From an uncultured Croceitalea sp. (lineage in GTDB: Bacteria > Bacteroidota > Bacteroidia > Flavobacteriales > Flavobacteriaceae), in assembly GCA_947495075.1 (NCBI GenBank), contig CANLXH010000003.1, forward strand, positions 62,001 through 126,000: 64,000 bases of DNA, given 5' to 3'. The notes below the pieces were generated by a model that worked only from the letters and a program-made list of their open reading frames with translations, made no database searches and was not told the DNA's origin. How positions within the stretch are numbered: position 1 is the stretch's first letter; the number at the start of each line of letters is the position of its first letter. This document shows positions 3,068-18,931 of the stretch, piece after piece. Both the position numbers and the translations under genes were made by a program.

Positions 3068-3820
3068 ATGGATACTGCATCACAAATACATCTGGCTTCT
3101 CAATATCTGGCAATGGCTGGCAAAAGTTTTTTAGAACCAAAAAATGATGATAGCCATACCAACGTAGGCTTTTTTATCGAAGACAATACTTTGAGAACAT
3201 GGGAATTAGATAATTCTGGCACTTATTTAGCTTTTAGATTTAATGATTTTTCTTTGCAATGGGGTATTTCTGATAGTAAAATTGTTTTTGGGTTAGATGG
3301 TAAAAACCATAATGAAATTATTAGCTGGATTTCAAAAATGGCAGCAGCATCTAAATTTAAGAATGCTTATAACTACGATTTACATTATAAACTTCCTTAT
3401 TCACAACTAGGTAATTTTAAATTTGGATTATCTGATACTTCAGAATTAAATCAGTTATTGGAGCTACGTATTTTGGCTCAAAATGTATTAAAAGAGTTTT
3501 TAAATAGTAAAAAAATAGAGTCAGATATTCGTATTTGGCCTCACCATTTTGATACGGGTGCTTTTTTTCAATTGAATGACGGTTCCGAAAAATCTATTGG
3601 TCTAGGGATGGCGATTCCAGATTCAGTATGTGATAAACACTATTTTTATATAAGTGGTTATACTGGACATGATGCTATCGATACAACGGGCTTTAAAGGA
3701 CTTACTTATGGTGAGTGGAGAAATAACGGTTTTAATGGTGCTATTTTAAATGCTTCTGCTATAAACAAGGAAGATGCCATCAATTTTTTTACGGAAGCTT
3801 TAAAAGTTTATAAAGAATAA
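3068..3820 (+). CDS. Conserved protein of unknown function
   Basis: This is a 250-residue soluble protein without signal peptide or membrane segment. The most distinctive stretch is IWPHHFDTGAFF (residues 156-167), recalling the WPHHFD signature of DUF5996-type proteins; that link is tentative. The rest is mixed alpha/beta with several aromatic pairs. It follows ypdA after about 70 bases and converges with the next gene, whose stop lies three bases past its own. No enzymatic role can be assigned. Confidence 0.7.
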   Translation: MDTASQIHLASQYLAMAGKSFLEPKNDDSHTNVGFFIEDNTLRTWELDNSGTYLAFRFNDFSLQWGISDSKIVFGLDGKNHNEIISWISKMAAASKFKNAYNYDLHYKLPYSQLGNFKFGLSDTSELNQLLELRILAQNVLKEFLNSKKIESDIRIWPHHFDTGAFFQLNDGSEKSIGLGMAIPDSVCDKHYFYISGYTGHDAIDTTGFKGLTYGEWRNNGFNGAILNASAINKEDAINFFTEALKVYKE

Positions 3821-6148: not shown

Positions 6149-6871
6149 TTAATTAATCAATTGACCAGTACTGGTACAAACTTCAACATCATGGGTCTTT
6201 TTCTCGAGTAAATCAATATGTTTTAATGTGATTTTCTCATTTTCCCAAACAGCTTGGGTAACACTAAATGTCTTTAAACCAGTTTCCCTGTCTATTATAA
6301 AACCGTTTTCCAAGTCTTGATGATTATTTGAATGAAAATCTATAATCGAAGTTGTAGTTAGTTCTTCTTTGTCTAAAAAATCCAAGAATAATACTTCTCG
6401 ATTTTTAATTACTTCTTTCTGATAAAGTGTCGCTGAGGACCAAATATGACTTTTTGAGTGGTCCTTTCTTTCAATAAACTTTTTTTCACCATCCCATCTC
6501 AATTCCACCAACTTGTGCTCATTAAAAACCAATATGGTAAAAGGTTCAATATTTAAAAGGTTTATCTTATCCAGATAACCATGTGGGTTATCATTACTAA
6601 CAATATCTAGAACGACCAACCCTCTACTCTTGGCATAGTTTCCCTTAGGGATGTGTTTTTCAAAAGCACCATTCAACAAAACGGCAATTACACCACTTTC
6701 GCTAACGGCAAACCAAGTACCTCCAGCTTGTGGATCTTTAGGGAAAACTATTTTTTTATTATTTATAACTTCTTCTTTTGGAACAAAGGCAGATGGTCTA
6801 GTACTATGTTCGTCCCTATTGGAAGTAAAAACAAAAGACTTTTCAACTGGTATAAAACTTACTGTACACAT
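6149..6871 (-). CDS. NRDE/TANGO2-family protein
   Basis: The 240-residue protein starts MCTVSF and contains FTSNRDEHSTRPSAF, the N-R-D-E signature of the TANGO2 family, followed by PKDPQAGGTWFAVSESG. Cys2 would be exposed after Met removal and could serve as an N-terminal nucleophile as in Ntn hydrolases; that is inference. TANGO2 homologues have been linked to haem or acyl-CoA handling in other organisms. Its start overlaps the DinB-like gene by 13 bases, indicating coupling. Confidence 0.8.
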   Translation of the reverse strand: MCTVSFIPVEKSFVFTSNRDEHSTRPSAFVPKEEVINNKKIVFPKDPQAGGTWFAVSESGVIAVLLNGAFEKHIPKGNYAKSRGLVVLDIVSNDNPHGYLDKINLLNIEPFTILVFNEHKLVELRWDGEKKFIERKDHSKSHIWSSATLYQKEVIKNREVLFLDFLDKEELTTTSIIDFHSNNHQDLENGFIIDRETGLKTFSVTQAVWENEKITLKHIDLLEKKTHDVEVCTSTGQLIN

Positions 6872-7344
6872 ACCTTTCTATACTGCATTGTGGACGGGGC
6901 AACTCCAAAAGAATCTGGCAACTCCATATTCGTCATTGTCTTAATACCAACTTTTATAAGTGCATGATGATGTATGGCGTGTTCTAAATTATACATTACT
7001 TCCCTATAGTAATTGGACTCTAGACAAACTTCTTGCTCACCCAATTCATAACTGACCTTAATGTCTTTGTTAGGTTTTTCAAGTTCTCTTTGTATGGTCT
7101 CTAACTGTGCTATAGCATATGTTACTTCCTTTTCAATTTTTGTGTTCCGCTCACGTTTATCATAGCAAACATCAGAAGAACCATACCCAGCTATTAAGCA
7201 TTGATATAATTCTATAATATGTCTTGTATGTTGCCCTATAGTTGCATTTGAAAGCGGACCACACGGTGTTATGTAAGAATCTTGAGGGAGCTGTGACAAT
7301 ATTTCCTTAAATTGCTCAATTGTCTGGATTGAGGAGTTGAACAT
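6859..7344 (-). CDS. DinB-like four-helix-bundle protein
   Basis: The 161-residue helical protein has conserved His clusters expected of DinB/YfiT metal sites: TIGQHTRHIIELYQ (H39, H42) and EHAIHHHALI (H122, H125-127). Such proteins bind a divalent metal, and some act as thiol-dependent S-transferases; the substrate here is unknown. It follows the LysE-type gene after 4 bases and overlaps the next gene, so it belongs to the same transcript. Confidence 0.75.
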   Translation of the reverse strand: MFNSSIQTIEQFKEILSQLPQDSYITPCGPLSNATIGQHTRHIIELYQCLIAGYGSSDVCYDKRERNTKIEKEVTYAIAQLETIQRELEKPNKDIKVSYELGEQEVCLESNYYREVMYNLEHAIHHHALIKVGIKTMTNMELPDSFGVAPSTMQYRKVCVQ

Positions 7345-7348
7345 AAGC

Positions 7349-8002
7349 TTATTGAATTTTTAACCGATGGTGTTTTTTGTATAATATAACTATGAGATAA
7401 AAAGAAAAACCTAGGTAGAGCAAACCTAATACTAAATTACTAATTTGGGTATACTTAGTGTAATTATCTACAATTAGTTTCCCTGCAAAAATAAATACCA
7501 ACAACCCCATTAAGGTTCCCATACCGATTCCGAACATATAACTTATTAATGATTGGGTTTTATGTTCAAGTATTTTTTTTGATTCTAAAACCTTATTCCA
7601 AGTTAGCCAAAAAGGTACTTGTAATGGATTCAATGCACTTAACAACAACCCTAAAAGTATTGGAGACGTAATCTTCGGCAATACGGATTTAGTTGAATTT
7701 AATTCATTGATGTGTATTGCCACAATAAGACTCGAAAATGCTAAATAAAGCAACAGTACAATTGCAAGCGGTAGCGCAATATATATCCATTTACCTTCTA
7801 AGGTTACTTTTTTACTTCCCCAAAGGGTAAAACGCACATAGATTAACTCTACAAATATCGCTGCAAATGAAAAAAGGAGTGCATTTTGTGTGCTTTGCGA
7901 AGCAGAAATGTCGAATGCAGTAATGTTTAGGCTCCCTAAGGGCAACGCACCTATAAAACTAATTAACAATCCTGCAATACAAACCTTTAAAGTTTTAAAC
8001 AT
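7349..8002 (-). CDS. LysE-type transporter
   Basis: The 217-residue polytopic protein has about six membrane segments. Its first helix carries GALPLGSLNITAFDIS, a variant of the Gly/Pro-rich signature after helix 1 in LysE/RhtB exporters of amino acids and related compounds. The loop NPLQVPFWLTWNKVL also fits this superfamily. It starts 25 bases after the YHS-domain gene. Substrate unknown. Confidence 0.75.
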   Translation of the reverse strand: MFKTLKVCIAGLLISFIGALPLGSLNITAFDISASQSTQNALLFSFAAIFVELIYVRFTLWGSKKVTLEGKWIYIALPLAIVLLLYLAFSSLIVAIHINELNSTKSVLPKITSPILLGLLLSALNPLQVPFWLTWNKVLESKKILEHKTQSLISYMFGIGMGTLMGLLVFIFAGKLIVDNYTKYTQISNLVLGLLYLGFSFYLIVILYKKHHRLKIQ

Positions 8003-8027: not shown

Positions 8028-8474
8028 TTACTTATTCTTTATTTTTTTCCAATTTTTATCTGCCTTGACTTTTAGTTCTTCCGGAGACTCATTTTTCCAA
8101 AGTTCTAAAGTATTTGTTTTCCCAGAGTTATAAAATAAAAGTAATTCTCCATCTCTTATTTCAAAAGTTTCAGGGTTTATAGCTACTTTTTTACTAGAAA
8201 CGGCCACTGCATATGCACAATACCCACCGTACTTAGGGACATACTTTGATGGATTGTCTATAAATTTTTTTAGATTTTCTTGACTTGAAAACTTAAATTT
8301 TACCCCATCATAAGTTGTCTCATATGCTTTATCTCCAGGAATCGCTTTATTATCAAAATAAGCAACCACATCATAACCTTCGGCAACATATCCTTTTTTC
8401 GTATTGTAATCTATGGATTGAGCAAAACTATTAAACCCAATTAAAAAAGCTACTATAACAACTATTCTACTCAT
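8028..8474 (-). CDS. Secreted YHS-domain protein
   Basis: The 148-residue protein has a signal peptide (residues 1-18, ending SFAQ) and a YHS-like domain: GYDVVAYFDNKAIPGDKAYE, then YDGVKFKFSSQENLKKFI and YGGYCAYAVA. The domain is found in periplasmic proteins associated with metals or redox partners, although the direct ligand is rarely known. It follows the Cys/His-motif membrane gene by one base and is the last gene of the redox half of the run. Confidence 0.78.
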   Translation of the reverse strand: MSRIVVIVAFLIGFNSFAQSIDYNTKKGYVAEGYDVVAYFDNKAIPGDKAYETTYDGVKFKFSSQENLKKFIDNPSKYVPKYGGYCAYAVAVSSKKVAINPETFEIRDGELLLFYNSGKTNTLELWKNESPEELKVKADKNWKKIKNK

Positions 8475-8475
8475 C

Positions 8476-9261
8476 TTAATAAATTAAAGATTCTTTATTT
8501 AATTTTTCAATTTGGTCAACATTTATTCGCATTACCTTCCAATCGCCAATTTCACTTACTTCACCTAAAACCTTTGATGGCTGTCCTATGTATGGTAATA
8601 TATCTTTATGCATTGGATTTCCTTCCAAATCAGTCAATAAAAAATAGTCTTCAGTTCCATTCTCATCCCTTGAGACCAATACCGGTGGCACCCCTCCAGA
8701 AATACAAAGAGCAGCACAACTTCTATGGATTTTACCAAAACCAGGTTTCATTACCCCAAAATAGCATTTTGGATCTATAATCTCTCCTTCAATTTTTAAC
8801 TGCCCTAGTGATTTAGGTAAGAGTTTTATGTTACTGTTATTATTTCCTAAACTTACTTTTTGGCTATCATCAATTTCCAATAAGGTTTTACCATTATAGT
8901 AAATTAATTGCCCTTCTATATTTAGTCGTTTTCCGTTTAAGTTACTTTCTTTTTCACGAATCTCTTTTAAATAAGCATTGGGTCCAAACTTACCTACACC
9001 TAATAATACAAGGTCTTTAAATTCATTATCAGAAAAAGAAACGCGGAGCATTGGATAAGGTGATTCATGATAAATACCTGTGACTTTGGTAGGGTTGCCA
9101 AAATCAAAAGAGCTATTGACTGCAGGTTTTTGAAAAAATCCAAACAACAATGCTCCAATCACTAGAATCACCAAGGATGCAATAACAAATCTTTTTAATG
9201 ATTTTTTGGTTTTAGAACCAACCTCATCTACATATCCTATATAAAATTCATCATTCTTCAT
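8476..9261 (-). CDS. Membrane-anchored protein with Cys/His motif, redox operon
   Basis: The 261-residue protein has one membrane helix (about residues 24-43) and a large, presumably periplasmic, domain. Its hallmark is DPKCYFGVMKPGFGK followed by IHRSCAALCISGGVPP, giving C166, H179, C182 and C186: a possible metal or haem site, though no CxxCH is present. The ATG at 9261 is preferred; an in-frame TTG lies at 9270 but overlaps the stop of the upstream gene. I recall this motif next to Rieske proteins elsewhere but cannot name a family. One base separates it from the YHS gene. Confidence 0.7.
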   Translation of the reverse strand: MKNDEFYIGYVDEVGSKTKKSLKRFVIASLVILVIGALLFGFFQKPAVNSSFDFGNPTKVTGIYHESPYPMLRVSFSDNEFKDLVLLGVGKFGPNAYLKEIREKESNLNGKRLNIEGQLIYYNGKTLLEIDDSQKVSLGNNNSNIKLLPKSLGQLKIEGEIIDPKCYFGVMKPGFGKIHRSCAALCISGGVPPVLVSRDENGTEDYFLLTDLEGNPMHKDILPYIGQPSKVLGEVSEIGDWKVMRINVDQIEKLNKESLIY

Positions 9262-9263
9262 AG

Positions 9264-10292
9264 TTAACAAGAAATTGGGGTTACTTCCGAACCTTCGGCA
9301 AATGCTTCTGGATTAATGTAAACCATATCATTCATAACTTTTAGTTCATAGGTTTTCACCTTTTCTGTAAATGGTGGAGGAGATTGCCCATTATGAGCTA
9401 AGTATTGGTATCCATGCCATGGGCATGTAATACAACCATCTACAATTTTACCTTCCCCTAACGGTCCTCCTTGATGTTTACAAACATTATGAATTGCTGA
9501 AAGTTTTCCTTTATTTTTAAATATAGCAACTCGTTCATTTTCAACAGTAAAAATCTTAGCCCTACTTTCTTCTATCTCATTAGGGTGGCAAACTTCTAAC
9601 CAACCATCTTCTTGAATAGCAATAAAACTATCTGTTTTTGATTCTTTAAAGGCTGCCATAAGGTGGAGTGTGCAAATCGTAACAAAACCAATCAGTAACA
9701 TTCCAATAGTAAAAAGTGACATCTCTTGTTGAAAGGTTCCTAAAAACACATGCATGATTACTAATGCATAGGCTAAATAAACCATCATATGCAAACGTTT
9801 CCAGATTTTTGTCGATAGATTGTGTAAAAAGAAATCATGGCTTGTAGATGCCATAGCAAATAAAATCAATAGCGCTAAAAAACCTAGTACTTGAAATGGA
9901 AAGTTGGTTAACGACCCATAATCCATATTCGAAGTAAAAATGGAATAAATAGGATTTACATTGCCTAGAACATGAAACTGAATTGTCGCAAATACACCGT
10001 GTATTAAGGTAGCTAAAAACATGCTAACTCCCAAATGCCTACGATTATAAAGCAATGGCATAAACCTAGAATTAATTCTTGTTAGTGGGCCAATAGCTAA
10101 AATAATATGTAACATAACAATTGCTAAAGATCCAAAAGCTCTAATTATAATAGTTTCGGCAATCATCTCGGGGTTCGTCACAAAACTTAATACGAAAAAT
10201 ATTGCCAAATACAAGACCATTGCTATGGCAATCCATTTATCATAAATTCTCTTATGCTTATTCCAAAACACTAATTTATAATCGAGTCCCAT
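9264..10292 (-). CDS. Ferric-reductase-like membrane domain fused to a Rieske domain
   Basis: The 342-residue protein has about six membrane helices (residues 20-215) with His residues at H62, H86, H98, H168 and H181, several placed to ligate haem b as in ferric-reductase/MsrQ-type proteins. From about residue 225 comes a Rieske domain: CKH (C271, H273) in a VCKHQGGPLGEG stretch, then CPWH (C290, H293). The expected role is electron transfer across the membrane between haem and a [2Fe-2S] centre. The Rieske part closely resembles that of the ThDP enzyme gene upstream. The start shares one base with the stop of the preceding gene. Confidence 0.85.
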   Translation of the reverse strand: MGLDYKLVFWNKHKRIYDKWIAIAMVLYLAIFFVLSFVTNPEMIAETIIIRAFGSLAIVMLHIILAIGPLTRINSRFMPLLYNRRHLGVSMFLATLIHGVFATIQFHVLGNVNPIYSIFTSNMDYGSLTNFPFQVLGFLALLILFAMASTSHDFFLHNLSTKIWKRLHMMVYLAYALVIMHVFLGTFQQEMSLFTIGMLLIGFVTICTLHLMAAFKESKTDSFIAIQEDGWLEVCHPNEIEESRAKIFTVENERVAIFKNKGKLSAIHNVCKHQGGPLGEGKIVDGCITCPWHGYQYLAHNGQSPPPFTEKVKTYELKVMNDMVYINPEAFAEGSEVTPISC

Positions 10293-10648
10293 TAAAATTC
10301 GATTTTAAAAAGTTCTTCTTTTTTGATTGCGTCCATAACTACTATACCATTTACAGCTTTAGAAGCTGAGAATTTATACTTTCCTATTCCTTTTAATTGC
10401 CCTAGAATCTTTCCTGAACGTCCTTTATCATCCAATTCATAAACCACAGGTGAAGGACTTTGAAACGGCTGGTTTAGTTCTATTTGAACGATATTACCTT
10501 TTAAAGAGACCGTAAGTTTTTCCATCTTAACACTATTAGATTCTGAAGAAAAACTCAAATCATTTAGTGTCATAACTAGAAGTATTGGCATTACAATGGT
10601 AATGACCAGCCAAATATATTTATGGGACTTTCTTTGACTTGAAATCAT
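10292..10648 (-). CDS. Small membrane-anchored protein of the redox operon
   Basis: This 118-residue protein has one N-terminal membrane helix (about residues 11-28), then a roughly 85-residue extracytoplasmic domain predicted to be beta-rich (KLTVSLKGNIVQIELNQPF, VVYELDDKGRSGKILG, KYKFSASKAVNGIVVMD). No cofactor motif is present. It overlaps the gene before and the gene after by 1-4 bases, so it is translated with them and probably belongs to the same complex. Function unknown. Confidence 0.65.
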   Translation of the reverse strand: MISSQRKSHKYIWLVITIVMPILLVMTLNDLSFSSESNSVKMEKLTVSLKGNIVQIELNQPFQSPSPVVYELDDKGRSGKILGQLKGIGKYKFSASKAVNGIVVMDAIKKEELFKIEF

Positions 10649-10857
10649 AGCTTTTTTGATTTAAAAAGTTTTCCCACTAAAAAAGGCCACGTCGCTATTA
10701 TTCCAGGAAATACTAATATCCGAACTCTCCTTTTGCTTTCCTTTAGTAATGGGTCAATTTTAACCGCTCCAACAAAAACAAAATATAGCCCGAAAACCAA
10801 TCCAATTCCGAAATAAATAGCTAATACAGCTAAAAAAATAGAAATAATTATTTGCAT
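10645..10857 (-). CDS. Small two-helix membrane protein of the redox operon
   Basis: This 70-residue protein has a hydrophobic helix at residues 2-35 and a second near 46-60, joined by a basic loop (LKESKRRVR), and a lysine-rich end. It lies one base after the ThDP enzyme gene and overlaps the next gene by 4 bases. Its size and position suggest an accessory subunit of a membrane complex; nothing more specific can be said. Confidence 0.65.
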   Translation of the reverse strand: MQIIISIFLAVLAIYFGIGLVFGLYFVFVGAVKIDPLLKESKRRVRILVFPGIIATWPFLVGKLFKSKKL

Positions 10858-10858
10858 C

Positions 10859-12811
10859 TTAAATTAAGTTTACGTCGGTCATAATTTCTAATACAGCTGG
10901 ACCATCTTGTTCAAACATATTCTTCATTTCTTTTTGTAAAGAATTTTGCTCTTCTACTCGTTTACCCCAAGCGCCACATGAATTTGCAAATTCTGCGAAA
11001 TTTGGATTAGAAAGTGATGTTTTCCAAACATCAAACTCACCTGCACGTTGTTCTTTAGAAATTTTGCCAAGTTCATGATTATTAAGTACAATTAACTTCA
11101 CAGGCATACCATATTTAACAAGAGTCGTTATTTCTGCAAGATACTGACATAAACCTCCATCACCCGCAACTGCAACAACAGGTCTTTTGTTGCCAACCGC
11201 TGTCCAAGCACCAATCGCTGCTGGTAATGCAAAACCTATAGATCCTAGATAACCAGACATTAAAAAATCTTGATTTTTAGATTCAAAATATCGTCCAAAT
11301 GAATACGCATTATTGCCAACATCTACGCACATAACTGCATCTTCAGGCGTTAATTTATTCATTGTTTCAAAAACAACAATTGAACCAATTCCATTCTCTG
11401 AAGTTTCTAAAAGACGCTTGGCTTTTTCTTCTTTCCATATCTTCCACCTTGCCGCAATTTCTTTAGTTTGATTCTGTGTATTTATTTTTCCTTTAAGCTT
11501 ATTATTAAAAATATCGAGAGTTCTTGAAATTTCACCCCAAACGGCTACCTCAACTTTATGAAATTTACTCAACGCCATCGGGTCAAAATCAATTTGAATT
11601 ATCGGTTTCTTAGGAGTTATCCCAGTATGATTTGAAAAAGAGGCTCCAAATACCAAGAGTAAATCAGCTTCGTTCATAAACCAAGAAGCAATTGGGGTTC
11701 CACTACGTCCTAAAACACCTCCTCCTAAAGGGTGGTTATCTGCAATAAGTCCTTTTCCTTTAAAAGTAGTAACCACGGCTGCGTTTAAACTTTCAGCAAA
11801 CTTTACAACAGCTTTTTTGTGAGCCCTAGCGCCATGACCCATAATGATAACAGGGCGTTTTGATTTTTTAATTAATTCAATGGCATCATTAACCGCTTCT
11901 TTTGGAGGTGCAATCTCCATTTGGGTAATTCTCTTATCTGGTGTTTGTGCAACAGCATTGGGTTTGGCTAATTTCTCCTGTATTTCATCAGGAAAAGTTA
12001 AATGCGAAACATCTCGTTTTAAAATAGCACTTTTAACCGCCAAAGACATTAATTCTGCATGCTTACTATCACCTTGCACACGTTGGTTAAATTCAGCCAC
12101 AGTATTAAAACCTCTAACCAAATCTACTTCTTGAAAATTACCTGTTCCTACTACTTGCGTAGCTACCTGGCCAGTAAGTGCCAAAAGTGGTGCCCTATCA
12201 ACCTTTGCATCCCACATACCTGTATACATGTTGGTAGCTCCAGGACCAGCAATTGAAAAACAAGCTGCAGGTTTACCAGTTAACTTACCATAAGCAGAAG
12301 CTGCAAATGCAGCCGCACCTTCGTGGCGAATGCCATAAAAGTTTAAATTTCCTTTTTGTTCTTGGCGCTTCATAGCATCTGCAAAACCCAAATTAGAATG
12401 CCCTACCATCCCAAATACTTTGGTTACTTCCCAATTTATCATAGTTTCAACCATAATATCAGAAATCGTTGTTTTATGGGGTGCTTCCTCTTCTAACCCA
12501 ACATAAATTGCATTACCTTCTTCTTTTACTTTAAAAGTCGCTATACCATCATCAAAGCCTCCCGGCGAATTACCTGTGCATGGGTGATAATCCCATCCAT
12601 GCCAAGGACATCGTAGCATTCCATTTTCAATAGAACCTTCTCCTAAAGGACCACCTTGGTGCGGACATTTATTGTCTAAAGCAGAAAATTTACCCTCAAA
12701 GTGAGTTAAACAAATACCTTTATGTGCTGCAGTAACCGTTTTAACACGCCCTTCTGGAAGTTCACTCTTATTATTTAATACTTTGTGCCAAATTATTTTT
12801 TTATCCTGCAT
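10859..12811 (-). CDS. Rieske domain fused to a thiamine-diphosphate enzyme
   Basis: The 650-residue fusion begins with a Rieske domain (residues 1 to about 105; C49, H51, C68, H71 in NKCPHQGGPLGEG and RCPWHGWDY). A full ThDP-dependent enzyme of the acetolactate synthase/pyruvate oxidase type follows. RHEGAAAFAASAYGKLTG holds the cofactor-activating Glu (E164). The central domain has RPVIIMGHGA, and the ThDP/Mg motif runs from AGDGG (549-553) to NN (577-578). An attached [2Fe-2S] centre suggests electrons are passed on after 2-oxoacid decarboxylation instead of to oxygen; that is inference. It sits between two other Rieske-fusion genes. Confidence 0.85.
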   Translation of the reverse strand: MQDKKIIWHKVLNNKSELPEGRVKTVTAAHKGICLTHFEGKFSALDNKCPHQGGPLGEGSIENGMLRCPWHGWDYHPCTGNSPGGFDDGIATFKVKEEGNAIYVGLEEEAPHKTTISDIMVETMINWEVTKVFGMVGHSNLGFADAMKRQEQKGNLNFYGIRHEGAAAFAASAYGKLTGKPAACFSIAGPGATNMYTGMWDAKVDRAPLLALTGQVATQVVGTGNFQEVDLVRGFNTVAEFNQRVQGDSKHAELMSLAVKSAILKRDVSHLTFPDEIQEKLAKPNAVAQTPDKRITQMEIAPPKEAVNDAIELIKKSKRPVIIMGHGARAHKKAVVKFAESLNAAVVTTFKGKGLIADNHPLGGGVLGRSGTPIASWFMNEADLLLVFGASFSNHTGITPKKPIIQIDFDPMALSKFHKVEVAVWGEISRTLDIFNNKLKGKINTQNQTKEIAARWKIWKEEKAKRLLETSENGIGSIVVFETMNKLTPEDAVMCVDVGNNAYSFGRYFESKNQDFLMSGYLGSIGFALPAAIGAWTAVGNKRPVVAVAGDGGLCQYLAEITTLVKYGMPVKLIVLNNHELGKISKEQRAGEFDVWKTSLSNPNFAEFANSCGAWGKRVEEQNSLQKEMKNMFEQDGPAVLEIMTDVNLI

Positions 12812-12857
12812 ACGATTAATTCTTATTACTATTTATGCTGTTTTGATTCACCTTTTT

Positions 12858-13028
12858 TTAGAAGGATACCTCACAATCTTTGTTAGGTTTTCTGAAATAA
12901 GAAATTTCAGGACCAAAACAATAATTATAATCTAAACCATAATATACTCTAACATTTATTCCTAAAGCTTCTAAATTCCTTGAATAAGTGGCTATAATTC
13001 CTGGTAAAAGGAACGGAGGCTCCATTTG
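12858..13028 (-). CDS. Short open frame in the gap between two Rieske-fusion genes
   Basis: The 263-base gap between the two large enzyme genes holds a frame of about 57 codons from ATG 13028 (MQMEPPFLLPG...), ending in CEVSF. The frame is also open further upstream into the end of the neighbouring gene (to 13094). The composition (VRVYYGLDYNYCFGPEI) looks protein-like, but I recognise no family. It may be a small gene, a remnant of a larger one, or chance. No clear ribosome-binding site is visible. Confidence 0.3.
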   Translation of the reverse strand, partial: QMEPPFLLPGIIATYSRNLEALGINVRVYYGLDYNYCFGPEISYFRKPNKDCEVSF

Positions 13029-13074
13029 CATTCTCAAAGATGTTAACGAAGAACAAATTAGTATAATTCTTATT

Positions 13075-14691
13075 CTAAAGTTCAACACCTGCATAGTTAA
13101 TCCCTGTTAAATAGTGTATACCCCTATTAAAAGTTGATAAATCGTTAGGATTAAATTTTGATACATTATCATAACCACAAGAACGTGCTACTACTTTTAT
13201 TAAATCGTTTGTAGCACTAAAAAAATTATACAGCTGTTTTGCAGAGGAATCAATAATTAGTCTATTACGCAACGATTCTTTTTGGGTAGCAATGCCCACC
13301 GGACAATTATTAGAACCGCAAGCCCTCATTCCTAAACATCCTATTGCTTGTATAGCAGAATTGGCAACTGCTATAGCATCGGCACCCATCATCATAGCTT
13401 TTGCAAAATCTTCTGCTATTCGTAAACCACCAGTGATGACCAGAGTCACATCTGTTGCACCAACTTTATCTAAATACTTTCTTGCTCTTGCTAATGCAGG
13501 AATGGTTGGTACATTTATGTTGTCTCTAAGAATGGTAGGTGCAGAACCTGTACCTCCACCTCTACCGTCTAATATAATATAGTCAACTCCAACATCTAAA
13601 GCAAATTGAATATCTTTTTCAATATGACTAGCTGCTATTTTAAAACCTACAGGAATTCCACCAGTACGTTCTCTTACTTTTTTAGCAAAATCCTTAAAGT
13701 CTTGCACTCCATGAAAATTTGGAAAAGTCGCAGGACTTATAGCCGTTTCTCCTTCCTTTAATCCACGAACTTTTGCAATCTCTTTACTTACTTTATTCCC
13801 AGGCAAATGACCTCCTGTGCCCGTTTTGGCGCCTTGCCCTCCTTTAAAATGAAAGGCTTGAACCTTATCTAATTTATCCCAGCTAAAGCCAAATTGAGCT
13901 GATGCTAATTCATAGAAGTATTTAGAATTGTTTTTTTGCTCATCAGGAAGTATACCACCTTCACCAGAGCAAATACCAGTACCTGCCATCTCTGCACCTT
14001 TAGACAATGCAATTTTTGCCTCTCTTGAGAGTGCTCCAAAACTCATATCGCTTACAAAAAGTGGAATATCTAAAACCAAAGGTCTTTTAGCTTTAGGACC
14101 AATAATTACCTTGGTGATTACTTCTTCATGGTCTATTAACGGACGTGAAGCTAATTGAGCTGGAAGAAATTGAATATCATTCCATTTTGGTAGTGTATTT
14201 CTATCAACTCCCATTGAAGCAGAAAAACCATGATGCCCTAAATTCTTTAGACCATTTACAGCTAGTTCTTTTATATATTCTGTATAAGGCTCTGTATCTT
14301 CTGGGTGAGTGTCTGCGTAGGCACCTAAATACGATTCTCTATCAAAAGGCTGCGGATGTGCCGTTTCAAAATCAGCTATTTCATTTTCATCGATTTGAAG
14401 TGAATCTCCTTCTATGTATTCTTGAAATTTATGAAGTTGCTCATCATTATTATATTCACTTATACCTGTGTCATAACGATAGTCCCATCCATGAACACCA
14501 CAAATTAAGTTTTGACCATCTATGTGACCATCTGCTAATAAAGCGCCTCTATGATGGCATCTTCCAAACAAAACTGAAATACCAGATTCGTGCTTGATAA
14601 TAACTAAATCAGTGTTTTTGACTAATGCGTAAGCAGGTTGTTTTTCATGAAGTTCTGAAATCTTAGCAATTTCAATTCGTTTTTGAACCAT
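13075..14691 (-). CDS. Rieske domain fused to FMN glutamate-synthase-like protein
   Basis: The 538-residue protein starts with a Rieske domain: CHH (C45, H47) and CGVH (C64, H67). From about residue 145 comes the FMN-binding, GltB-like synthase barrel, with AGTGICSGEGGILPDEQ, FHFKGGQGAKTGTGGHLPG, DGRGGGTGSAPTILRDN and the [3Fe-4S] motif CLGMRACGSNNC. The glutaminase domain of classical GltB is absent, as in the short archaeal-type enzymes. It may therefore act as a different flavin/iron-sulfur dehydrogenase rather than as GOGAT. It is the first gene of the run and so probably nearest the promoter. Confidence 0.85.
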   Translation of the reverse strand: MVQKRIEIAKISELHEKQPAYALVKNTDLVIIKHESGISVLFGRCHHRGALLADGHIDGQNLICGVHGWDYRYDTGISEYNNDEQLHKFQEYIEGDSLQIDENEIADFETAHPQPFDRESYLGAYADTHPEDTEPYTEYIKELAVNGLKNLGHHGFSASMGVDRNTLPKWNDIQFLPAQLASRPLIDHEEVITKVIIGPKAKRPLVLDIPLFVSDMSFGALSREAKIALSKGAEMAGTGICSGEGGILPDEQKNNSKYFYELASAQFGFSWDKLDKVQAFHFKGGQGAKTGTGGHLPGNKVSKEIAKVRGLKEGETAISPATFPNFHGVQDFKDFAKKVRERTGGIPVGFKIAASHIEKDIQFALDVGVDYIILDGRGGGTGSAPTILRDNINVPTIPALARARKYLDKVGATDVTLVITGGLRIAEDFAKAMMMGADAIAVANSAIQAIGCLGMRACGSNNCPVGIATQKESLRNRLIIDSSAKQLYNFFSATNDLIKVVARSCGYDNVSKFNPNDLSTFNRGIHYLTGINYAGVEL

Positions 14692-17263: not shown

Positions 17264-18931
17264 ATGAAAATTAAATCAAAAAATATATTATTTACAATTA
17301 CAGTATTAAGCTTAGGGTTTCAGAATGGGATGTATGCCCAAAATCAAAAAAACAATACAACTTTTATCGATATAAGGGATGGTAAAGTATACCAAACTGT
17401 GGAAATAGGAACGCAAGTATGGTTCGCAGAAAATTTTGCTTATTTACCAGAAGTTGACACTCTTAATATTTCTGTTTATGGTTATAAAGGTAATTCCATT
17501 AAAAAAGCAAAAAAAACTAAAGCCTACAAGGAGCACGGGGCACTTTATTCTTGGGAAAAGGCAAATCAGTTGGCGCCAAAAGGATGGAGATTGCCAACCG
17601 ATGCAGATTGGATACAACTGGAAACTCAAATAGGAATGCAAAAAGAACTTGCTGTAAAGCAAGGATGGAGAGGAGATAATGCACCTTCTCTTAAGGAAAA
17701 TGGCGATTCTGGGTTTAAGGTAAAATTCTCTGGATGGAGAACGGACTACGGAGACTTTAGATTTCAAGATGAACACGCTAATTTCTGGCTAGCAGATGCG
17801 CACGACAAGGAAAGGGCGTACGAAAGGCTCATTGGTATAAACAATAAAAAAATTGGCAGAGAATATGGAAACAAAGGTTGCGGATTTAGTGTAAGATATG
17901 TACGAGATATTCCTTCTGAAAAATATATAATATATCCTGAAAATGAATGGGAAATGATGCAAAACATATCAGACTTTGGTTGGAGTCAGGATAAAATAAA
18001 TAAGTTATATCGTTACGCTATTGATAGTACAAATGCTACAGGGATAATTGTTATTCAAAGTGGTAAAATGATATATGATTATGGAGATACCCACGAAATA
18101 AGTTACATAGCATCGGTAAGAAAGAGTTTATTGTCTATGCTTTATGGTAAATACGTGGATAATGGCACCATAAATCTAAACAAAACGCTGCGTGAATTGA
18201 AAATCGATGATAATGGTAGACTATTGAACATAGAAAAAGAAGCAACAATTTTGGATATTCTTAAGTCTAAATCTGGAGTATTTCATCCTGCGAGTAATCC
18301 AGGTGGTAACGAATGGCTATTTCCTGAGCGTGGAAGTAAAAAGCCAGGAACTTTTTTTATATACAATAATTGGGATTTTAATGTAGCAGGTCACATTTTT
18401 GAACAAGAAACAGGCAAAGATATCTACGATGCATTTGAGAACGATATTGCAAATAAAATAGGATTTCAACAATGGAACAGAAGTAAACAAAAGAAATCTG
18501 GAGACACTAGAAAATCTAAATTCAAAGCATATCATTTCGAAATATCTACAAGGGATATGGCCAGAGTGGGTTATTTGATGTTACGAAATGGAAAGTGGAA
18601 TAATGAACAAGTAATTCCAGCATCTTGGATAAAAAGGTCGACATCTATTACAACAAGTTATACAGATATGTATAAAGTTGACCCACGACTTAAAGACTGG
18701 CCGTGGTGGAAATGGGGACAAGGACTTATGTGGAGAATATGGGACAGTCCAAACCTTTCACCAGAATTTAAAGGTGCTTACACAGCTACTGGTAACGCAG
18801 GTCAATATATTACTATCATTCCATCAATGGATATTGTTATCGCTTTAAAAACAAAAGCCGTTTATGGAAGAAGAACCAACAAGGAAATCTATGAAAACTT
18901 TTTAATGAAATTATTTGATACTAAAAAATAA
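17264..18931 (+). CDS. FISUMP domain fused to a class C beta-lactamase-type serine hydrolase
   Basis: The 555-residue protein has a signal peptide (1-26, ending MYAQ) and then a FISUMP domain (about 32-215), recognisable from FIDIRDGKVYQTVEIGTQVW, ALYSWEKANQLAPKGWRLPT and GFSVRYVRD. A serine hydrolase of the beta-lactamase/PBP-4* superfamily follows (about 235-550). SVRK at 284-287 is the SxxK nucleophile motif, and the Tyr motif is probably in FIYNNWDFN. It should be periplasmic or on the surface. It is the first intact large gene of the accessory region, and its stop is followed within 40 bases by the shared cassette-end motif. Confidence 0.8.
   Translation: MKIKSKNILFTITVLSLGFQNGMYAQNQKNNTTFIDIRDGKVYQTVEIGTQVWFAENFAYLPEVDTLNISVYGYKGNSIKKAKKTKAYKEHGALYSWEKANQLAPKGWRLPTDADWIQLETQIGMQKELAVKQGWRGDNAPSLKENGDSGFKVKFSGWRTDYGDFRFQDEHANFWLADAHDKERAYERLIGINNKKIGREYGNKGCGFSVRYVRDIPSEKYIIYPENEWEMMQNISDFGWSQDKINKLYRYAIDSTNATGIIVIQSGKMIYDYGDTHEISYIASVRKSLLSMLYGKYVDNGTINLNKTLRELKIDDNGRLLNIEKEATILDILKSKSGVFHPASNPGGNEWLFPERGSKKPGTFFIYNNWDFNVAGHIFEQETGKDIYDAFENDIANKIGFQQWNRSKQKKSGDTRKSKFKAYHFEISTRDMARVGYLMLRNGKWNNEQVIPASWIKRSTSITTSYTDMYKVDPRLKDWPWWKWGQGLMWRIWDSPNLSPEFKGAYTATGNAGQYITIIPSMDIVIALKTKAVYGRRTNKEIYENFLMKLFDTKK

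Follow-up and report, generated by a model that had tools for sequence, protein, structure and literature searches.

Why should three proteins of different types, encoded in one gene cluster, each carry a Rieske domain? The question is raised by a 64,000-nucleotide stretch of the genome of an uncultured Croceitalea sp. (Flavobacteriaceae; contig CANLXH010000003.1, positions 62,001 to 126,000; hereafter the window), in which three Rieske fusions lie together on the minus strand: a flavin mononucleotide (FMN) glutamate-synthase-like protein (GltS-Rieske), a PoxB-like thiamine diphosphate (ThDP) enzyme (ThDP-Rieske) and an MsrQ/ferric-reductase-like membrane protein (FRE-Rieske, or FRE). Together with a companion protein named Cys264 and a 70-residue membrane protein (sm70), FRE and the enzyme fusions are a conserved co-occurring set. 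We propose, with a probability of roughly 45%, that this set may form a modular electron-export system built on Rieske-to-Rieske electron transfer.

A cluster of three Rieske fusions

The features of the locus are, by position in the window:

13075..14691, minus strand: GltS-Rieske, N-terminal Rieske and FMN glutamate-synthase domain (Pfam matches, alignment)
12858..13094, minus strand: 78-codon open reading frame, remnant of a beta-barrel gene (comparison with a protein of locus L051)
10859..12811, minus strand: ThDP-Rieske, N-terminal Rieske and pyruvate-oxidase/PoxB-like ThDP enzyme (Pfam matches, alignment)
10645..10857, minus strand: sm70, 70-residue membrane protein with two predicted membrane segments (alignment, locus comparison)
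10292..10648, minus strand: sm118, 118 residues, one predicted membrane anchor and a small soluble part (alignment, locus comparison)
9264..10292, minus strand: FRE-Rieske, six-transmembrane haem domain and C-terminal Rieske (Pfam matches, alignment, model)
8476..9261, minus strand: Cys264, N-terminal membrane anchor and two predicted OB-fold domains (alignment, model, OB-fold matches)
8028..8474, minus strand: YHS-domain protein with an N-terminal hydrophobic segment (domain match, alignment)
7349..8002, minus strand: LysE-type translocator, accessory (domain match)
6859..7344, minus strand: 161-residue accessory protein without a Pfam match, putatively DinB-like (label only)
3068..3820, plus strand: c3, 250 residues, distant DUF5996 relative (profile comparison)

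The original prediction that three enzyme types are each fused to a Rieske domain with intact ligands is borne out. The domains score 43.8 (GltS), 55.4 (ThDP) and 62.6 bits (FRE) in Pfam against a cut-off of 20.3 (PF00355), and the C-x-H / C-x2-H ligands are intact and do not vary across 29, 28 and 25 aligned sequences, respectively, those of the window among them, where a gap was allowed at a position in up to a tenth of the rows. The whole genome holds five Rieske matches, three of them in this cluster and one in a second ThDP-Rieske protein.

The genes follow one another on the minus strand in the order GltS-Rieske, ThDP-Rieske, sm70, sm118, FRE-Rieske, Cys264, YHS, LysE-type, DinB-like and NRDE-like. 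They had been described as a tightly packed operon, which holds from ThDP-Rieske to YHS (successive spacings of +1, -4, -1, +2 and +1 bases, or -7 between FRE and Cys264 if the latter uses the TTG at 9270, where its listed reading frame begins, rather than the ATG at 9261), but not between GltS and ThDP, which are 263 bp apart. Most of the truncated beta-barrel gene remnant sits in that gap; it is 64% identical to residues 1-78 of a 180-residue beta-barrel-type protein that is whole at the equivalent place in L051, with further relatives in L065 (OMP_b-brl match), L070 and L099. The YHS gene, thought to be interleaved, instead follows the core, just outside 8476..14691, and the same-strand run continues past it with the LysE gene and two genes that are putatively DinB-like and NRDE-like. 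As for the two tiny membrane proteins, sm70 fits that description with its two predicted segments, whereas sm118 has a single anchor and a soluble part.

ThDP-Rieske consists of a Rieske domain at residues 12-81 (ligands C49, H51, C68 and H71, invariant; n=28) and a ThDP enzyme at residues 113-648, in which the TPP_enzyme N, M and C domains are all matched. The solved structure closest to the enzyme part is Escherichia coli PoxB (E 4e-65), the quinone-dependent pyruvate dehydrogenase, which has the same three domains, the catalytic glutamate of the RHE motif (E164, invariant) and the GDG motif. Unlike PoxB, ThDP-Rieske has gained an N-terminal Rieske domain and lost the C-terminal membrane-binding tail, which is deduced to be missing because the alignment stops at PoxB residue 526 of 572, equivalent to ThDP-Rieske residue 644 of 650, with six residues remaining. 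The protein reaches the curated cut-off of none of the 25 NCBIfam models listed as matches. The second copy, on contig C1 of the same genome (L046:6532-11555), is 68% identical and belongs to a minus-strand run of MsrB, OsmC, DUF2721, peroxiredoxin, DUF427, ThDP and MsrA genes with an AraC-type regulator upstream. In L068 (6548-8500), a ThDP gene contains an internal stop and is a decaying or sequencing-damaged copy.

GltS-Rieske combines a Rieske domain at residues 6-76 (ligands C45, H47, C64 and H67, invariant; n=29) with a Glu_synthase FMN domain at residues 193-506 (286.9 bits). Its C-x5-C-x4-C motif (C452, C458 and C463), invariant in 29 rows, aligns with the cysteine motif that provides the [3Fe-4S] ligands of glutamate synthase (GOGAT). 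The FMN domain and this motif are thereby shared with the synthase domain of ferredoxin- and reduced nicotinamide adenine dinucleotide phosphate (NADPH)-dependent GOGAT. The protein differs in carrying its own Rieske domain, in lacking a glutaminase domain (a Pfam scan gave only Rieske matches upstream of residue 193) and in its substrate-side loop, where SPPPHHDIYSIEDL of the solved GOGAT structures is replaced by SPATFPNFHGVQDF in the alignment. Elsewhere in the genome lies a second GltS-family gene, 35% identical.

FRE-Rieske matches Ferric_reduct (PF01794) with 48.2 bits against a gathering score of 28 and ends in a Rieske domain at residues 231-315 (ligands C271, H273, C290 and H293, invariant; n=25). 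Six membrane segments are predicted from the alignment, and six long helices also appear in a structure model with a mean predicted local distance difference test (pLDDT) score of 59.9. Both ends of the protein, and hence the Rieske domain, are predicted to be cytosolic by the positive-inside rule, a topology based on hydropathy and charge only. Five histidines (H86, H98, H152, H168 and H181) are invariant (n=25), of which H98, H168 and H181 align with H91, H151 and H164 of E. coli MsrQ. The FRE profile matches MsrQ, as sole target, with E 1.6e-10 and 27 bits, and FRE reaches 42.2 bits with the NCBIfam MsrQ model, under its cut-off of 130. Judged by alignment, FRE and the E. coli MsrQ are homologues, and H86 and H152 are extra invariant histidines of FRE. 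NOX proteins hold four haem histidines as His-x12/14-His in transmembrane segments TM3 and TM5 (PMC5676040); the TM5 pair of FRE, H168-x12-H181, matches this rule, whereas the TM3 pair, H86-x11-H98, does not. YedZ/MsrQ types are reported to have three of the four superfamily histidines (PMC3591440). By our own count, H86 is displaced by two residues from the canonical TM3 position, where an arginine stands instead, and a second, cytosol-side haem is possible.

A Pfam scan gave no FAD/NADPH (FNR) module in FRE, where the Rieske domain occupies its position, and no MsrP domain among the scanned operon proteins. The genome has a single PF00174 match, which is on contig C2 (the window being on C3), beside a CxxCH-bearing gene, and reads like a sulfite dehydrogenase. 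FRE thus resembles the MsrQ of MsrPQ, the electron donor of a periplasmic methionine sulfoxide reductase, in its homologous six-transmembrane haem domain and three aligned histidines, and differs in the C-terminal Rieske domain, in H86 and H152 and in having no adjoining MsrP. With the ferric-reductase-domain (FRD) superfamily of NOX and FRE enzymes it has in common a Ferric_reduct domain with an added electron-transfer domain, but it is without the FAD/NADPH module and is accompanied by Cys264, sm70 and two enzyme fusions. Because each of the two known systems lacks a defining feature here, the cluster would be a transmembrane electron-transfer system of the MsrQ/NOX kind that is a member of neither MsrPQ nor NOX.

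Cys264 has no Pfam or NCBIfam match, only generic OB-fold matches at residues about 51-148 and 148-255. A C-x12-H-x2-C-x3-C motif (C166, H179, C182 and C186) is kept in 14 aligned sequences and in two Rhizobium proteins, and the model, built from six sequences, has a mean pLDDT of 77.0. The protein is predicted to be a membrane-anchored periplasmic two-OB-fold protein bearing a Cys3His motif. CcmE-type proteins, which are membrane-anchored periplasmic OB-fold proteins, offer an analogy in their anchor and an OB fold with metal- or haem-type residues, whereas Cys264 has two OB folds and the Cys3His motif. Among the smaller companions, sm70 carries a conserved PG...WP motif and c3 aligns with DUF5996 at an hhalign probability of 96% and 14% identity; in L080, the gene after GltS is a DUF5996 gene proper.

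Co-occurrence and ancestry of the set

The suggested survey of co-occurrence was carried out in 199 Flavobacteriaceae genomes (198 genera; family sample) and 296 Bacteroidota genomes (phylum sample), and conserved co-occurrence was found in both, with Fisher p values of 2e-6 to 3e-14 that treat genomes as independent, kinship being uncorrected. In the family sample, FRE occurs in 11 genomes, ThDP-Rieske in 17 and GltS-Rieske in 22, including G343, whose match begins only at residue 124, so that no Rieske domain was seen. All 11 FRE genomes also have ThDP-Rieske (p 3e-14) and nine have GltS-Rieske (p 2e-8); of the two exceptions, G439 has a GltS in pieces that fall under the cut-off. GltS-Rieske is present in 14 of the 17 ThDP-Rieske genomes (p 2e-13). 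The phylum sample contains FRE with its membrane part in 10 genomes, ThDP-Rieske in eight and full-length GltS-Rieske in 37. Here GltS-Rieske accompanies FRE in 9/10 genomes (p 3e-8) and ThDP-Rieske in 7/8 (p 2e-6), and ThDP-Rieske is found with FRE in 5/10 (p 7e-7). Looser cut-offs gave matches in 77/296 and 152/296 genomes, where the surplus consisted of lone Rieske domains or of glutamate synthases of other kinds and was dropped before counting.

Gene order was compared at 27 FRE loci, comprising 25 from Bacteroidota (window included; the closely similar L052 and L054 both count) and two of five Rhizobium plasmids found. Cys264 is present in 27/27 and sm70 in 26/27, the sole miss, L043, beginning at a contig end. 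ThDP-Rieske follows in 17/27 (two further ThDP matches are Rhizobium enzymes without a Rieske domain and were excluded), GltS in 17/27 (one of them in pieces), sm118 in 17/27, c3 in 16/27, YHS in 13/27, the DinB-like gene in 12/27 and the LysE-type gene in 9/27. In the named collection, ThDP, sm70, sm118, FRE and Cys264 are adjacent in five of five loci, with GltS inside the stretch in three. Four loci (L036, L037, L039 and L040) have the minimal order GltS-sm70-FRE-Cys264-c3, and their genomes contain no ThDP fusion at E 1e-100, which links GltS and FRE directly. At L074 (8207-14980), FRE and GltS are in pieces and represent decaying or sequencing-damaged copies.

The modules also occur outside Bacteroidota. 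On haloarchaeal plasmids, GltS-Rieske is 55-56% and ThDP-Rieske 56-57% identical; both share a record in three of the four plasmid records read, at distances of 1.4 kb (Salinirubellus), 4 kb (Halorarius) and 17 kb (Halorubrum), and Haloferax larsenii has ThDP-Rieske alone, GltS not being listed for it in the plasmid search. All five Rhizobium plasmids carry FRE and Cys264; at the two loci read, sm70 is present too and the 19 kb covered contain no enzyme fusion. On a plasmid of Mycobacteroides, ThDP-Rieske lies roughly 2 kb away from a protein of the flavodoxin family, whose identity to the FMN_red protein next to ThDP in L052 is 55%. A Vibrio fortis plasmid (L091) has a GltS relative (56%, query residues 55-538), flanked by a GNAT gene on one side and DMT transporters on the other, with LysR regulators nearby and no ThDP or FRE match within the 17 kb read.

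How did three partners come to share one domain? The original prediction had proposed a duplication of the Rieske domain onto new partners, with the ThDP and FRE versions as close relatives. In a tree of 98 rows and 123 columns, for which the program warns of few columns, a single branch separates FRE-Rieske from all other rows (98/91; 98% of bootstraps), another does so for ThDP-Rieske (78/97; 81% of bootstraps), and GltS-Rieske is nearly one group, with two changes needed. The ThDP and FRE domains do group together, away from GltS, but the fork (90/84) is not strongly supported, Rieske oxygenase-like rows also fall inside it and the warning concerns long branches that meet where the ThDP side joins the GltS side; seven of the 15 other Rieske rows (L005, L018, L019, L021, L024, L026 and L035) are short or long-branched. 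A recent duplication between ThDP and FRE was rejected, and recent copying within the operon is unsupported, because every one of the three Rieske types is a group by itself with members from more than one phylum. The origin of each fusion is probably single and ancient.

A proposed route for electrons and its rivals

The electron-export reading builds on what is directly observed, namely domain content, ligand conservation, co-occurrence, gene order, the loss of the PoxB tail and the absence of an MsrP partner from the operon. Topology, electron direction, substrates and cofactor loading would then be as follows. The cytosolic ThDP enzyme would oxidize pyruvate or a similar 2-oxoacid via ThDP and probably flavin adenine dinucleotide (FAD), and the cytosolic GltS protein would oxidize a glutamate-like substrate via FMN and a [3Fe-4S] cluster, each handing electrons one at a time to the Rieske cluster at its own N terminus. 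Subsequently, the electrons would pass to the cytosolic Rieske domain of FRE, directly or via a small shared carrier, and the b-haems of FRE would conduct them through the inner membrane to its periplasmic face. There the Cys3His site of Cys264, perhaps with YHS, would be the acceptor or catalyst; sm70 and sm118 would be small subunits. The Rieske domain would thereby substitute for the electron ports of the parent families: the membrane/quinone tail of PoxB, the flavin-NADPH module of NOX and the reductase partner of GOGAT. Outward flow appears favoured, by analogy, since PoxB-type oxidation frees electrons and MsrQ and NOX relatives conduct them outward (PMC5676040). Of the membrane-linked electron chain that had been predicted, the conserved set, the MsrQ-related membrane protein, the conserved histidines and the predicted cytosolic Rieske domain speak in its favour, whereas its direction and substrates are inferred only.

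The purpose, the least certain part of the mechanism, would most likely be to maintain targets in the envelope in reduced form when oxidants or electrophiles cause stress. A hint at oxidant defence comes from the second ThDP-Rieske of this genome, within its MsrB-OsmC-peroxiredoxin-MsrA run. An OsmC-like gene (23% identity) also lies near ThDP and GltS in L094, and haloarchaeal islands contain, by annotation, peroxiredoxin, pirin, DsrE and mercuric-reductase-like genes.

Several points weigh against electron export. GltS-Rieske is found without FRE in 28/37 genomes of the phylum sample and 13/22 of the family sample, and ThDP-Rieske in 3/8 and 6/17 (in one of these six, G372, the contig ends directly after sm118), so that another electron partner would be needed in many genomes and a single obligatory chain is weakened. 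Among the 27 FRE loci, ten lack GltS and ten lack ThDP-Rieske in the stretch read. On the question of whether the fusions occur mostly apart, the answer is mixed: GltS usually stands without FRE, as FRE does without enzyme fusions at the two Rhizobium loci, while FRE mostly has one or both. Queries with the MsrA, peroxiredoxin and OsmC from the run around the second ThDP-Rieske matched 0/27 FRE loci (E 1e-3, 80 residues), so the link to stress comes only from the ThDP paralogue and the haloarchaeal context. The second FRE haem is unsure because the TM3 spacing breaks the NOX rule, and the FRE model is low in confidence. Rieske-to-Rieske transfer is itself a proposal, and the Rieske domains might instead be regulatory or accept electrons inward.

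Could the cluster then be a loose stress or metabolite-repair neighbourhood? Three independent redox enzymes with a common ferredoxin-type partner would sit in a co-regulated cluster (with a CRP-family regulator, antiporter, K+ channel, YjeF_N epimerase, DUF2721 and the DUF5996-like c3) and form no direct chain. Every fusion is indeed also found without the others, and single fusions share recurrent neighbours: c3 with GltS alone, the antiporter near ThDP, YjeF_N near GltS or ThDP. We nevertheless regard this as unlikely, as FRE, sm70 and Cys264 are kept together in nearly all loci, in Bacteroidota mostly with at least one fusion, and the same plug on three cluster partners is improbable by chance in a genome whose Rieske matches number five.

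Reversed flow is a still less probable alternative, in which FRE would draw electrons from the quinol pool or periplasm and pass them via Rieske domains to GltS, acting as a ferredoxin-type, ammonia-using glutamate synthase, with ThDP adding electrons. GltS does retain the FMN domain and cysteine motif of ferredoxin-dependent GOGAT, whose usual direction is reductive, and the minimal GltS-FRE operons exist without ThDP; the missing glutaminase domain, the change of the loop SPPPHHDIYSIEDL to SPATFPNFHGVQDF, the other GltS-family gene of the genome and the redox potentials, by which a Rieske/quinol donor is a weak reductant for glutamate synthesis, argue against it. Finally, a NOX-like or ferric-reductase machine for reducing O2, Fe(III) or Cu(II) outside the cell with electrons from the Rieske enzymes, with Cys264 and YHS as metal-binding accessories, would suit the above-cut-off Ferric_reduct domain, the metal association of YHS domains and the O2 or Fe(III) reduction by NOX and FRE enzymes (PMC5676040), but is very improbable given the missing FNR module, a superfamily that includes MsrQ with its protein acceptor, and the constant presence of Cys264, which suggests a dedicated protein partner.

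Neighbouring genes and wider meaning

Beyond the proposed electron-export set, certain genes recur around the fusions. Where other fusions are absent, c3 often adjoins GltS-Rieske. A proton antiporter lies near ThDP in many Flavobacteriaceae loci and in Halorarius (26% identical); on the Mycobacteroides plasmid, a cation:proton antiporter gene lies near ThDP-Rieske by annotation, without a BLAST match. Stand-alone YjeF_N (NAD(P)HX epimerase-type) genes occur near GltS- or ThDP-Rieske in Bacteroidota and haloarchaea (L078:8014-8715, L079:11268-11921, L100:10751-11497, L104:10471-11217, L089:4753-5493 and L092:11116-11847). The ThDP/antiporter neighbourhood also has an Ion_trans_2-type channel gene (L097:7250-7900; relatives in L053, L069, L070 and L099) and, in Halorarius (L088), a potassium channel gene by annotation with no BLAST match to the L097 channel. 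A PycTM (Pycsar effector-type) membrane protein (L100:7441-8067; BLAST relatives in L070, L079, L093, L099 and L102-L104) recurs in the vicinity of GltS-Rieske/c3 or the antiporter. A Fer2-bearing nucleotide cyclase (L055:6492-7412) is encoded between antiporter and ThDP, and a CRP-family regulator upstream of GltS in several loci; a cyclic-nucleotide link of the neighbourhood is possible. Elsewhere in the window, a 555-residue reading frame (17264-18931, plus strand) resembles, from its translation, a FISUMP-type and a serine beta-lactamase-like domain in that order.

The original prediction named no described pathway with this gene set, and the consulted portions of the open-licence PubMed Central literature likewise yielded no description of the GltS or ThDP Rieske fusions, of Cys264 or of the whole set. 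An FRD architecture with a Rieske domain ('M4') was catalogued in 2013, with neither a function nor an operon in the parts consulted and with only two mentions of the word Rieske in the paper (PMC3591440).

Taken together, the data raise a broader, rather doubtful idea: unrelated cytosolic flavin and ThDP oxidases and a transmembrane haem protein may all have swapped their native ports for a Rieske domain, forming a 'Rieske bus', a respiratory-type wiring of a new kind in which electrons would move from one Rieske domain to the next without quinone, NAD(P)H or free ferredoxin and exit to a new periplasmic Cys3His OB-fold redox protein, its modules having spread among Bacteroidota and alphaproteobacterial, haloarchaeal and actinobacterial plasmids. 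If true, oxidation of the pyruvate and glutamate type would be coupled to electron export through the membrane by a route that needs neither quinone nor NADPH, and the exchange of a native electron port for a Rieske domain would be a general rule. Cys264, sm70, the DUF5996-like c3 and the GltS-Rieske family, which is present in 37 of the 296 sampled Bacteroidota genomes, would then have a function as well.

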